Shown here: positions 35,714 to 41,416 of the stretch, piece by piece
Layout: every line of letters begins with the position of its first letter
How positions within the stretch are numbered: position 1 is the first letter of the stretch
Origin: Nitrospira sp.
GTDB lineage: Bacteria > Nitrospirota > Nitrospiria > Nitrospirales > Nitrospiraceae
Reading direction: 5' to 3'
Assembly (NCBI GenBank): GCA_024331045.1
Contig: JANDJC010000001.1
Span: 1-64,000, forward strand
DNA: 64,000 nucleotides
Position numbers and translations under genes: made by a program
The notes under the pieces: generated by a model
What the model saw: only the letters and a program-made list of their open reading frames with translations
What the model was told of the DNA's origin: nothing
The model's database searches: none

Positions 35714-36862
35714 TCAACGTTTCTTTCGATTGCCCAGATGTCCCGATCGCACCTGACAAGCCAACACATCGCAGATGACACGGGTCGCCATCAGGCTGGT
35801 GATCTCCGCCGCATCGTAGGGCGGCGCACATTCCACGATTTCCATGCCGGCCAGCGGCTTCGCGTCGGCAATGATTTGGATGAACTTGAGCACCTCGCGA
35901 GGGAGAAAGCCTCCCGGCTCCGGCCAGCCCGTGCCTGGCACGAACGCGGCGTCCAAGCAATCGACGTCGAAACTGAGCCAGACCGCATCCACCCCATCCC
36001 ATGCGACTTCCAACGCCTGTTTGGCGGCGTTTTCGATGCCCATCTCCACACAGTCGGTTACGGTCATGATGGTCGTTTGCCGCTCCCGCCCCACTTTGAC
36101 ACCTGGTCTGGGCGCTTGCCAGCCGCCGATGCCAATCTGAACCAGATTTTTGGCTGGTACGTTGGGAATGTTCGTCGCGTGGAACCACGGCGTGGTATGC
36201 ATACGTTCATCGAGATCGGTATCCTGAGTATCGACATGCCGATCGAAGTGGAGAATGCCGAGCTTCCCCCCATTTAAATGCTGCGCGACACCGCGCACCG
36301 TGGCATAGCCCAGCGAGTGATCTCCACCCAGCACGACGGGAAAGGCCCCACTGGCAAAGATGTGGGCCACACCTTTGCTCACTTGATCGAACGTTTTTTC
36401 GATGTTGCTGGGGATCGTAAAGATATCGCCGACATCGCAAATGGAGATGGATTCCCGCAAATCCACGCCAAGTTCAAAACTATAGGTGCCATACAACGCC
36501 GAAATTTTCCTGATGCCTTGGGGACCAAAGCGGGTGCCGGACCGATAGGTCGTCCCGCCGTCAAAAGGGGCGCCAACAATGGCCACATCATACTGCCCGC
36601 ACTTACGGACATCCTCAAGATAGGGTGCTTTGATAAACGTGTTGATACCGGCGAAATGAGGAAGTTCCCCTCGGCTAAAAGTAGGGATGCGCCGATCCTT
36701 GATGGAATCGGCGCCGGGCAGGCCCAATTCCAGGCCGCGGGCAATTTCCTCCTCATGTTTGGCTGTCGGCAGTAAGGCCTCCGCCTCAACAGCGTATTTC
36801 GCCTCCGGCCCATAGTTGTCATGCAATGGAACCTTGCCTTGATACGTTCTCTTTTTCGCCAT
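35714..36862 (-). CDS. Ureohydrolase-family metalloenzyme, probable guanidinase (GdmH-like) rather than agmatinase
   Basis: VVLGGDHSLGY, LHFDRHVDTQDTDLDERMHTTPWFHATNIPNVPAKNLVQIGIGGWQ, SFDVDCLDAAFVPGTGWPEPGGFLPRE; long N-terminal extension; sits downstream of a guanidine-I riboswitch and APC permease. Confidence 0.75.
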   Translation of the reverse strand: MAKKRTYQGKVPLHDNYGPEAKYAVEAEALLPTAKHEEEIARGLELGLPGADSIKDRRIPTFSRGELPHFAGINTFIKAPYLEDVRKCGQYDVAIVGAPFDGGTTYRSGTRFGPQGIRKISALYGTYSFELGVDLRESISICDVGDIFTIPSNIEKTFDQVSKGVAHIFASGAFPVVLGGDHSLGYATVRGVAQHLNGGKLGILHFDRHVDTQDTDLDERMHTTPWFHATNIPNVPAKNLVQIGIGGWQAPRPGVKVGRERQTTIMTVTDCVEMGIENAAKQALEVAWDGVDAVWLSFDVDCLDAAFVPGTGWPEPGGFLPREVLKFIQIIADAKPLAGMEIVECAPPYDAAEITSLMATRVICDVLACQVRSGHLGNRKKR

Positions 36863-36948: not shown

Positions 36949-38499
36949 TCATTCACCTCCCTCCGACTTGACCGTTTGCACGATGCGCCATCTCCCGTAC
37001 TCTCCGATCACCACCGACAGGGTCGTCGCAGCAAGGATACAGCCGAGCACCAGCGGAACGGCCCAAAGTTGCCACCAGGGAGCATCGGGCGCCACAGCAT
37101 AGGGACGTGGCCACGCGATATTGACGAATTCAAACACCGACCAGAGAAACGCCACCGTATTGATCAGAAGTCCCCACGAGCCCAACTTCAGGTGACCCAC
37201 CGAGGGATCCCACCGACCAGTCAGCCTGCTATAGAGCCCGACTCCCGTGGTCATCGCGAACATGGCGTAGAGCCCTCCCGTGCCAAACGCCAGCACCGTG
37301 GCAACCGCTTCGTCATTGAGCCCGAACAACAATCCGAGCGTGGCCCAGGTAACGGTGAAGAGGACGGCACGGCGCGGCGCGCCCTCCACGGTGAGTTGAC
37401 TCAAGGCCGCCGGAAGGCTTCCCTCGCGAGCCATCGAAAAGACGATCCGGGACGTGTAGCGGACCATCGACGCCCCACACGCCAGAAACGCCACCAGCAC
37501 GATGGCCAGGAACGGAGTTTCCGCCCAGGCTCCGAAATTGTCGACAATCACGGGCGTGACGGGGTCTGACGCGGCGCTGGTCACGGCCAAACGGTCTCGA
37601 TGCACACTGAGCGTGAGAGCAGCGGAATTGAAGAGCACCACGCTCCCAACCATGCAGAGCGAGAAGAAGATCGCGCGCGGCACCATCCGTTTGGGGTCGT
37701 GTGTTTCTTCAGCGATGGTCGAGCAGGCATCGAAGCCGATGAAGGCCCATCCCGATATCGCGAGCGCCGCCAAAAATGCGGCGGTTTTACTGGGCGCGGT
37801 CCCGGTCCCAAGATGCGCGAACAGCTCCGAGAATTCGTGCTGCCGGAAAAAGAGGAACAGCAGAAGCGCGACACCAAACGAACCGACGATTTCCGCATAG
37901 ACGCCGAGAGAGATGAGCAGCTTAAAGACCGAGACGTGGACCAGGTTGAGCACGGTACAGAGCAGCATAAACACTGCCCCCCACAGAACCAGGTTCAAGC
38001 CCGTTTCACTGTTGGATCCCCAAAAAATCGCCAGCCAGATCCCGCCGGTATAGGCGGTGGTGGTCAGCATCGCAATCGTGGAGCTGATATAAATGGCGCC
38101 GGCATACGTGCCTGTGATGTCGCCGCCGAGCTGCCTTGCCCACTTGTACGCACCTCCCGCAATCGGGATCTGCGAGGACAGTTCCGCGTAGACCGTCGCG
38201 ACCAGCAACTGCATCACCAAACAGAGGGCGAGGGCGGGAAACCATCCGCCTCCGGCGACGACCGTCTGAACGCCGATAATGGCGTAGAGCCCCGCCACCG
38301 GGGAGACCGTCGCAAACCCAATGGTCAGACTGTTCCAAAGACTGAGACTCCGATGGAGCGTCGGAGTACTCCTTGCTTCGGGGGGAGGAATATCCGATTG
38401 GTTTTCTTGGGAGAGCGCGCCAGCCCCTTTGATGGCAATCGTCCCCACCTCGGGCTCAGAAGACCTATCGGGGAAAGGATCGTTGGGCTGGATATGCAT
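36949..38499 (-). CDS. APC-superfamily permease, candidate guanidine transporter
   Basis: LSLWNSLTIGFATVSPVAGLYAIIG...AGGAYKWARQLGG...GWAFIGFDACSTIAEETHDPKRMVPRAI; in-frame ATG at 38499 preceded by GCAGGGAG Shine-Dalgarno-like sequence; ORF-track start 38529 is TTG. Confidence 0.82.
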   Translation of the reverse strand: MHIQPNDPFPDRSSEPEVGTIAIKGAGALSQENQSDIPPPEARSTPTLHRSLSLWNSLTIGFATVSPVAGLYAIIGVQTVVAGGGWFPALALCLVMQLLVATVYAELSSQIPIAGGAYKWARQLGGDITGTYAGAIYISSTIAMLTTTAYTGGIWLAIFWGSNSETGLNLVLWGAVFMLLCTVLNLVHVSVFKLLISLGVYAEIVGSFGVALLLFLFFRQHEFSELFAHLGTGTAPSKTAAFLAALAISGWAFIGFDACSTIAEETHDPKRMVPRAIFFSLCMVGSVVLFNSAALTLSVHRDRLAVTSAASDPVTPVIVDNFGAWAETPFLAIVLVAFLACGASMVRYTSRIVFSMAREGSLPAALSQLTVEGAPRRAVLFTVTWATLGLLFGLNDEAVATVLAFGTGGLYAMFAMTTGVGLYSRLTGRWDPSVGHLKLGSWGLLINTVAFLWSVFEFVNIAWPRPYAVAPDAPWWQLWAVPLVLGCILAATTLSVVIGEYGRWRIVQTVKSEGGE

Positions 38500-38553
38500 A
38501 ACGTCGGCTCCCTGCGGGCTTTTTCCCAAAAGGCCATGTACCGTCGTACATGA

Positions 38554-38652
38554 TCTCCCGGGCTTTTATCCCTCCGTGGAGCCCCGTTATGCGAGGCCGA
38601 AAACTCTTGGCCCAGACGCTTTCTTTTACGAGAAAGCCGGAACCCTAGTTTT
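38554..38652 (-). promoter_or_regulatory. Guanidine-I (ykkC-class) riboswitch aptamer
   Basis: Minus strand reads ACTAGGGTTCCGGCTTTCTCGTAAAAGAAAGCGTCTGGGCCAAGAGTTTTCGGCCTCGCATAACGGGGCTCCACGGAGGGATAAAAGCCCGGGAGA. The CTAGGGTTCCG, TGGnCCnAGAG and ACGGAGGGATAAAAGCCCGGGAGA blocks match the ykkC consensus in the right order and spacing. Confidence 0.9.
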
Positions 38653-38843
38653 CCTTTTGGATATGTTTCGCAGGATCTTATTGGTCCATCCCAACAAAGT
38701 CAAGCCCAACAAAGTCATGCCTTCCTTCCTTGGAGGTTTCTAGAGATGTACAAGAACGACTTTTACCGACGTACCACCTCGCCCGCATCAAGCGATTGTG
38801 CTAGCATGCCCCCTCCTTCTCATATCTCGCTTATGTCTCGCGC

Positions 38844-39902
38844 GTGAAGACCGTTGCGTCAAGGCCGACGATCATGACTTCGCTCTCTTCCGCCTCCGCT
38901 TCCGACTATCGGTTTCTGTTCCTCATGATCCCGTCACTGTTCATCCCATCGCTTGCGATCGGTTTGTTTGAATTCAGCTCCAACATCACGGTGGACAATT
39001 TTCACTATCTGACGAACCGGCTGATGCACCCTGACTCAGAACGCTCCACTCATTCTTTCAATCCCTCCCACTTTCTGGTGGAGGTCAAAGCACGGTACCT
39101 CTGGCTCACCACCGTCGTCATCATGCTGGTCGCCGGACTCTATGCCTCGATTCTCTGCGGGATGATTGTGTATCAATCTCATCCGCGACCACGGATGGCC
39201 GTGGTCGCGGGGGTCGGCACCATCCTCGCCGCAATGGGACTCTTCTCTCTCTTGGCGCTGGATGAAACCCATACGCTTTATCGGGTGGTGTTCGTCTTCA
39301 GTTACGAGAACCTGCGCCAAGCCGGCCCCGAGCGAATCAGCCCGGAACTCTTGCGCTATGCCAAGACCGTGGTTTCCCTCATCAATGTGGAGGCCGTCGT
39401 GGTGCCGGTGGTGGCGATTCTGGCCGCTTGCAGCACGCTCGCTCCTCCGCTCACGGGTGATCAAGCCGACCCTGATTTTTGTGCGACGCAGATGAAACGA
39501 CTGAAGGAAGTCCTGGGCGCGTCCTCGGCTGTCCTCGTGGCGGGAGTCCTCCCTATGGGGGCCTGGCTTCGATGGCCGGCGGCGTTGATCTCCGACAAGG
39601 CCGCGCACGAAGCGGTACTTGGAGCGGCTATGGCCGTCACGCTTTTTGGGGGCGTCACCTTCACCTTGATGTTGGTATCCACCTCCCTTCCCGCCGCCTT
39701 CATCCTGGCGAAACGAGCACAAGCTCTCTTACAAGCCGACCCCGACACCCGGTCTCCCTCGGCTCAGGAAGCGTGGCTCAAACAGCACGGTCTGTTTCTG
39801 TCGTTGCACGATCACGTTCCTCAATTCGGCCTGATGTTGGCTCCTCTGTTGGCAAGTCCCTTGAGCTCTCTTCTGCTCGCTCCCCTTGCCCCCTCCGGGT
39901 AA
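38844..39902 (+). CDS. Multi-pass membrane protein of unknown function
   Basis: Long ORF with ~6 predicted TM stretches; no recognised family. Confidence 0.5.
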   Translation: MKTVASRPTIMTSLSSASASDYRFLFLMIPSLFIPSLAIGLFEFSSNITVDNFHYLTNRLMHPDSERSTHSFNPSHFLVEVKARYLWLTTVVIMLVAGLYASILCGMIVYQSHPRPRMAVVAGVGTILAAMGLFSLLALDETHTLYRVVFVFSYENLRQAGPERISPELLRYAKTVVSLINVEAVVVPVVAILAACSTLAPPLTGDQADPDFCATQMKRLKEVLGASSAVLVAGVLPMGAWLRWPAALISDKAAHEAVLGAAMAVTLFGGVTFTLMLVSTSLPAAFILAKRAQALLQADPDTRSPSAQEAWLKQHGLFLSLHDHVPQFGLMLAPLLASPLSSLLLAPLAPSG

Positions 39903-39976
39903 AACCGACGCGGAGCGTCCGGCTCATCACCGACGACAAGGTGCGCAGGATGGACCTCGGTTCATGGCCGGTCATG

Positions 39977-41416
39977 TCACCGGCAGGTGAAGTGGCAATA
40001 CTCGACGGGACTTGGAGGAGCATGCAACACCATGCCGATGGCATCCGGGTCGTACCCGATCTCCTCTAGATCTTTCCGTGCGCGGGCAAGTTCTTCTTCC
40101 GTGACGTAGGCGACGGTGTCAGGAACTCCGTCGTCTTTCAAAGAACGCACAAGGGCGCTCAATGTTTCGCGCTCCTCCGGCGGGACGTCCTTCGGCAGCG
40201 GGAAATCAATCCGCCGGCGGTAGGGGCTCACGTATGTCTCGTTCAACGCCTTGATTGTTTTCAGCGCGAGTCGATCCTGTTCCCATCGCTGGAGCCTCGG
40301 GCCAGCGGACGGATGCACGGCCAGCAGATCCATGAGCGTGATAACATTGGTATTCAACGATCGGCCAATAAATTCACGCTGCGGCTCAAGCATCACCTCT
40401 GTGAATCCGAGATAGCGGGCCACTGCTTCCACCAAGGCAAAATTGATCATGAAACTGTACTGCCCGCCAAACTGGCCATAGCAGGGTTTGTTAGGGTCGT
40501 TGAGCACCTTGAGATCTCCCGCACCGGCGTCAAAGGCGCTGAAGCCGACGGCGTTGGGCGCCAGGAGCCGTTTGGCTTCCTTTAAGGTCGCAAAGGCGCC
40601 GAGGTTGACCGGCACCAACACCTGTGGGTCGATCGATTGGAAAAACTCCACAATGGTTTTTCGGTAGGGGACCTGCTTCCATTCGACCGGCCGAAGCTCT
40701 TTCTCCCACACCAGCTCATCAAGAAAGAGAGGATACCGTTTCAAGGAATCGATGTCTTTCGCTTCAAAGGCCCTAACAAAGGCTGACCACTCAGGCATGT
40801 TGCCATACAGCGTTCCGCTTACATTCGGCCGAACGTGCTCCTCTTCAAGGTCCCCACCGTTCTTGGCCAACAGCTTGGTTGGCAGATCGTTCCACAACTC
40901 GTTGCAGATGATCCGATCGACCGTTCCATCGCCCACCCCCGCCACCTGTTCGATTGAACCGCAATAAACCTCCACACGGTCCCGATGATCCGCCAGATCG
41001 GGGTGGGCCAATGCCCCTTCCAAAACAGCCTCGTCCCAATCGACCATGACATACCGGACGTGGGGATACACCCTGCCTTCTCGATCCAGGGTTTTGAGAT
41101 GGCAAAGAAAACATGCGGCGAGATTCCCATTGCCAGGTCCCAACTCCATCACCATCAAACATGAGTCGTCGTTTGTCACCCGACTGCTGGTCGATGGATG
41201 ACGATGGGCGGCCTTCTCGCGCCTCACGACTTTTTCATAGTAGTCAGCGGCGAGCGCATGGGCCAGACGATAGTCCGCCGAAGCGAATGTTTGATAATAG
41301 GATCGGAGCCTATCCCCTCGCAGCGCATAGAAGATGCGGTTCACATGGGCCTGCCACTGGTCAAGCGGCTTGAAGTCCCCGATTGGCTGCGGAAGGTCGT
41401 CGATCGCTTGTAACAT
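39977..41416 (-). CDS. SAM-dependent methyltransferase-like protein (MidA/DUF185-like)
   Basis: MVMELGPGNGNLAACFL (motif I), YVMVDWDEAVLEGALAHPDL, IICNELWNDLPTKLL. Confidence 0.6.
   Translation of the reverse strand: MLQAIDDLPQPIGDFKPLDQWQAHVNRIFYALRGDRLRSYYQTFASADYRLAHALAADYYEKVVRREKAAHRHPSTSSRVTNDDSCLMVMELGPGNGNLAACFLCHLKTLDREGRVYPHVRYVMVDWDEAVLEGALAHPDLADHRDRVEVYCGSIEQVAGVGDGTVDRIICNELWNDLPTKLLAKNGGDLEEEHVRPNVSGTLYGNMPEWSAFVRAFEAKDIDSLKRYPLFLDELVWEKELRPVEWKQVPYRKTIVEFFQSIDPQVLVPVNLGAFATLKEAKRLLAPNAVGFSAFDAGAGDLKVLNDPNKPCYGQFGGQYSFMINFALVEAVARYLGFTEVMLEPQREFIGRSLNTNVITLMDLLAVHPSAGPRLQRWEQDRLALKTIKALNETYVSPYRRRIDFPLPKDVPPEERETLSALVRSLKDDGVPDTVAYVTEEELARARKDLEEIGYDPDAIGMVLHAPPSPVEYCHFTCR

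Follow-up and report, generated by a model that had tools for sequence, protein, structure and literature searches.

The locus examined here raises the question of how an RNA element preceding a predicted guanidine permease gene controls the genes behind it, and at which step of gene expression. The locus lies in a window of 64 kb, a term used here for the whole stretch of DNA that was analysed, from a comammox-type Nitrospira MAG that is 85% complete. Ammonia monooxygenase subunit and urease alpha genes were found in the same genome, which is therefore taken to represent a comammox-type Nitrospira able, in principle, to carry guanidine through to ammonia. The initial annotation had proposed a guanidine-I aptamer on the minus strand and left the downstream genes, the organism, and the expression platform unidentified. 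The features on which the first part of the analysis depends are as follows.

38553..38659, minus strand: guanidine-I (ykkC subtype 1) riboswitch aptamer.
36949..38499, minus strand: APC-superfamily permease, predicted guanidine importer (PF13520, 114.8 bits; PF00324, 96 bits).
35714..36862, minus strand: Ni-dependent guanidinase, GdmH-like, of the ureohydrolase family (PF00491, the match to 9fek, and key residues).
38675..38703, minus strand: promoter-like site TTGACT-17-TAAGAT upstream of the aptamer, recognized from its sequence.
38321..38743, plus strand: antisense ORF of 140 aa, named in the initial annotation.

The Rfam scan that had been proposed as a check gave a covariance model match to RF00442 (Guanidine-I) at 38659-38553 on the minus strand, which covered model positions 1-107 of 107 and scored 92 bits against a gathering threshold of 63 (E = 2.7e-15 over the whole 64-kb window). 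The three ykkC blocks quoted earlier were all located in order on the minus strand. Of the conserved core blocks of the class, CUAGGGUUCCG, GUCUGGUCCGAGAG, and CACGGAGGGAUAAAAGCCCGGGAGA, each is present, the second with UGGGCCAAGAG instead of UGGUCCGAGAG. By sequence standards, the assignment of this segment to the guanidine-I riboswitches is certain, and by homology the aptamer very likely responds to guanidine. The earlier coordinates (38554-38652) pointed to the right site, the model match reaching 1 and 7 bases further at its ends. No Rfam family besides RF00442 was matched in the window, no other RNA family was detected in the region 37000-40000 at permissive thresholds, and no second guanidine-I copy was present elsewhere in the assembly.

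The genomic context bears out the identification, in that an APC permease and a guanidinase, genes for guanidine transport and degradation, follow the aptamer on the same strand. The permease start at 38499 is a prediction. The guanidinase (382 aa) begins 86 bases past the end of the permease gene; its best PDB match was 9fek, labelled 'putative agmatinase 2', over the full length with 858 bits, and the Synechocystis enzyme 7esr gave 572 bits. The residues for guanidine hydrolysis and metal binding in the Nitrospira inopinata guanidinase are listed in PMC11410670, where 9fek is also mentioned. The protein encoded in the window keeps 10 of 10 of them, namely T105, H222, W313, and E344 together with the Ni ligands H182, D207, H209, D211, D299, and D301.

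The plus-strand ORF 38321-38743, which had been called spurious, exists and lies antisense to both the aptamer and the start of the permease gene. It has no family match in Pfam or NCBIfam, so the description was fair and the ORF was rejected as a real gene. A divergent ORF of 352 aa (38844-39902, plus strand) adjoins the riboswitch and is likewise devoid of Pfam or NCBIfam matches. The promoter-like site recurs in relatives: of 53 Nitrospira loci, most have a TTGACTTTG..TAnnnT motif at almost identical spacing from the aptamer.

The arrangement in the window is already published. The triad of riboswitch, APC permease, and guanidinase was described in N. inopinata by Palatinszky et al. (2024, PMC11410670), who detected the riboswitch in 56 of 83 comammox genomes and reported that guanidine raised the expression of permease and guanidinase, with RNA-level changes in metatranscriptomes. 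The aptamer that had been presented as missed by annotation is real, but that framing adds little, since the riboswitch and its operon had been published for N. inopinata. What is added here is a reading of the mechanism. A text search of PMC11410670 found no mention of "leader" or "start codon". In the part of the open-access literature that was searched, no translational guanidine-I switch or coupled leader ORF was found described, and an earlier mention is possible.

The mechanism was approached through a set of 49 distinct leaders whose start could be identified, drawn from genomes within the window's family, and through a comparison set of more than 100 guanidine-I loci from other genomes. 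Three further segments of the window are needed at this point.

38578..38592, minus strand: P2 loop and 3' arm GCATAACGGGGCTCC, the proposed anti-Shine-Dalgarno and anti-start-codon strand (from the minimum free energy (MFE) fold, conservation, covariation, and the comparison with Firmicutes).
38496..38513, minus strand: start region of the permease, with its Shine-Dalgarno sequence (AGGGAG) and start codon; GGAGCC and CGTTATGC within it complement the P2 arm (from sequence and fold).
38525..38562, minus strand: proposed ligand-free hairpin CCCGGGAGATCATGTAC..GTACATGGCCTTTTGGG, which takes up the P3 3' strand (from the MFE fold) and is near-invariant in the alignment.

The sequence GCATAACG..GGCTCC, formed by the P2 loop and 3' arm, is complementary to GGAGCC..CGTTATGC, the Shine-Dalgarno sequence and start codon. 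In the MFE fold of the window leader (z = -4.4), two stretches of P2 pair with the start region: in the loop, GCAUAACG with CGUUAUGC, which covers the start codon, and in the 3' arm, GGCUCC with GGAGCC in the Shine-Dalgarno region. Across the 49 leaders, which are related to one another, 93.8% of the cells of this helix are paired; sliding the partner by 1-3 bases leaves 30-52%. A mismatch within the pairing occurs in some loci. Four pairs are doubly changed among these leaders, a number reached as high in 1 of 500 shuffles; examples are GCATAGCGA facing TCGCTATGC (L030) and GCATGGCGA facing TTGCCATGC (L026). Other measures on the 49 leaders, among them the covariation score, fell within the range of the shuffles (73 of 500). 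Because the double changes are few and the score is reached by shuffles, covariation taken alone gives moderate support. The P2 3' arm is also held by P2, and the Shine-Dalgarno sequence and AUG by the ribosome, and much of the complementarity could be kept for these other reasons; the argument as read from the alignment is carried by the CATAA:TTATG pairing of the loop and by the small number of double changes.

The strength of the pairing differed among groups. For the duplex between P2 and the ribosome binding site, the median energy was -21.1 kcal/mol among Nitrospira, -14.1 among nine ammonia-oxidising Betaproteobacteria, and -6.7 among Firmicutes. When P2 arms were drawn from foreign loci instead, the median share that did as well was 0%, 3%, and 68%, respectively. 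Other bacteria lay in between (duplex median -13.8, foreign arms equal in 13%), so the device may extend beyond nitrifiers. With the aptamer pairs enforced, the probability that the AUG is unpaired rose from 0.06 in the free fold to 0.55 (mean of 48), and the accessibility of the Shine-Dalgarno sequence showed no rise (0.35 to 0.26). The aptamer-enforced fold is less stable than the free one by about 20 kcal/mol, and a kinetic, cotranscriptional decision must therefore be assumed. A conserved pairing of an aptamer strand with the Shine-Dalgarno sequence and AUG, exclusive with the aptamer, is present in these leaders.

We conclude with good confidence that the riboswitch switches on an operon for guanidine uptake and hydrolysis, most likely at translation initiation, with guanidine probably turning translation on. 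In the proposed sequence of events, the P2 loop and 3' arm would leave P2 when guanidine is absent and pair with the Shine-Dalgarno sequence and AUG, while a second hairpin would capture the P3 3' strand. Binding of guanidine would stabilise P1-P2-P3 and release the start site, allowing the permease to be made; the guanidinase gene comes next, in the same orientation. Among relatives, the released start would mostly be that of a short leader ORF whose stop overlaps the permease start, and the permease would probably be translated by coupling. In the window's clade, where the leader ORF is fused to the permease, the switch would gate the permease directly.

The leader ORF is seen in 40 Nitrospira loci, in which the gated AUG opens a frame of 23-30 codons with its stop 1 to 8 bases past the permease-side start codon. 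Overlap of a stop and a start in this manner is typical of translational coupling. The pN/pS of the leader ORF was 0.69, compared with 0.65 in a non-coding frame, and a conserved functional leader peptide was rejected; what is preserved is the open frame with its overlap, selection on the peptide is not clear, and the likely purpose is therefore translation itself rather than its product. A CAGACCU/AGGUCUG hairpin over the permease Shine-Dalgarno sequence was seen in many of the leader-ORF loci and is suggestive, its predicted folds being only slightly stabler than codon-shuffled ones (mean z -0.7).

Comparison of leader ORFs and the permease tree showed that the first codons of the window permease are the counterpart of what in other Nitrospira is a separate leader ORF. 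In the window's clade (L001, L023, L024, L028, L037, L054, and L006, the last nearly identical to the window), leader ORF and permease form one continuous frame. Six fused loci form one clade of the permease tree with support of 100/100, and relatives in another genus (L026, L034) have a separate leader ORF, from which it follows that the fusion is probably derived. One locus outside the fused clade (L005) also has leader ORF and permease in one frame, and may reflect a frameshift or an assembly error. One MAG (G100) contains two guanidine-I loci, L006 and L054, of which one is near-identical to the window, and is possibly a mixed bin.

Taken by itself, translational switching would not account for the RNA-level changes reported in PMC11410670 unless decay or Rho took part. 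A version in which control is gated by translation and executed on the RNA, so that a hidden start leaves an untranslated message open to Rho termination or decay, shares the pairing evidence with the translational model and reconciles it with those transcript changes. Rho sites and decay are hypothetical at this locus, and we regard this version as unlikely, although RNA decay or Rho may contribute to translational control.

Still less probable, and to be given only a slight chance, is a classic transcriptional ON switch, in which a terminator forms without guanidine and is prevented by guanidine. PMC11410670 gives this mechanism for the class, carries it over to comammox, and terms the riboswitch a transcriptional suppressor with citation of work on the class; a review likewise describes guanidine-I riboswitches as usually acting by transcription termination (PMC12186494), and transcript levels do rise with guanidine (PMC11410670). 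One and the same terminator test was run on Nitrospira and Firmicutes loci, and terminator-like structures turned up in 0 of 53 of the former and 54 of 56 of the latter. In the window leader the test found no intrinsic terminator that would compete with the aptamer, and the spacing from aptamer to start is only 53 nt, with no U-run there longer than 4. A CATGTAC hairpin followed by GCCTTTT was considered as an intrinsic terminator and rejected, as it fails the test in every locus.

Two natural variants bear on the translational reading. In L035 (297-500) the aptamer is intact (89 bits) and the Shine-Dalgarno sequence and leader ORF start are deleted; to judge from its sequence, this permease may have escaped control. 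In L052 (369-620), a second guanidine-I copy in genome G142, the aptamer is decayed (48 bits, P3 broken) and ATA replaces the leader ATG; the permease ORF is intact and the downstream guanidinase is on the opposite strand. Both fit an aptamer and a leader start that work together, each as a single case. That the window copy is itself a decayed or non-guanidine variant (ykkC subtype 2) that has lost guanidine sensing is scarcely credible, for although this copy is known from sequence alone, its match is full length and 29 bits above threshold, the downstream guanidine-degrading enzyme keeps every key residue, closely similar leaders occur across many genomes, and the genuinely decayed copy in L052 looks quite unlike it.

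On balance, we lean towards the view that guanidine-I in nitrifiers (Nitrospira and some Nitrosomonadaceae) is a distinct translational variant, in which P2 pairs with the start of a permease-coupled leader ORF and a secondary fusion has taken place in the window's clade. If this is true, the term "transcriptional suppressor" used in print for the comammox riboswitch would need correcting. If control is translational, mostly through a coupled leader ORF, transcript counts would misread it, and terminator-based reporters and models would be wrong. In wastewater and soil, comammox bacteria use guanidine as a substrate for growth, and the timing of its uptake would be set by this RNA.

Among known systems, the guanidine-II and guanidine-III riboswitches are likewise translational according to the review PMC12186494, but they have different aptamers, neither of which was matched in the window. 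The guanidine-I riboswitches of the terminator type in Firmicutes have the aptamer core in common with the window. There the terminator, where found, directly follows the aptamer, and the pairing of P2 with the start is no better than chance, the reverse of the situation in the window.

Another group is formed by the guanidine-I riboswitches of ammonia-oxidising Nitrosospira and some Nitrosomonas (L073, L138, L082, L128), in which the P2 loop is also complementary to the start region and the permease is homologous to that of the window, whereas the loop sequence differs and the leader ORFs, of 53-63 codons, are longer than those of Nitrospira. In Nitrosospira (L073) the loop CATGACGAAG faces the start region CTTCGTCATG, a compensatory change. 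Pairing is weak in some Nitrosomonas (L102, L151). The seven Nitrosomonas leaders (L071, L082, L102, L128, L130, L151, L166) vary in this respect, with pairing of P2 loop and start in some and weak pairing in others, and several have leader ORFs of 43-63 codons.

The closest system is the operon of N. inopinata and other comammox bacteria, which shares with the window the riboswitch class, the gene order, and a 9fek-like guanidinase with all published key residues. That operon was read in PMC11410670 as under a transcriptional suppressor, whereas the comparison made here points to sequestration of the start site. It also brings out a leader ORF, which is separate in most species and has become part of the permease in the clade of the window.
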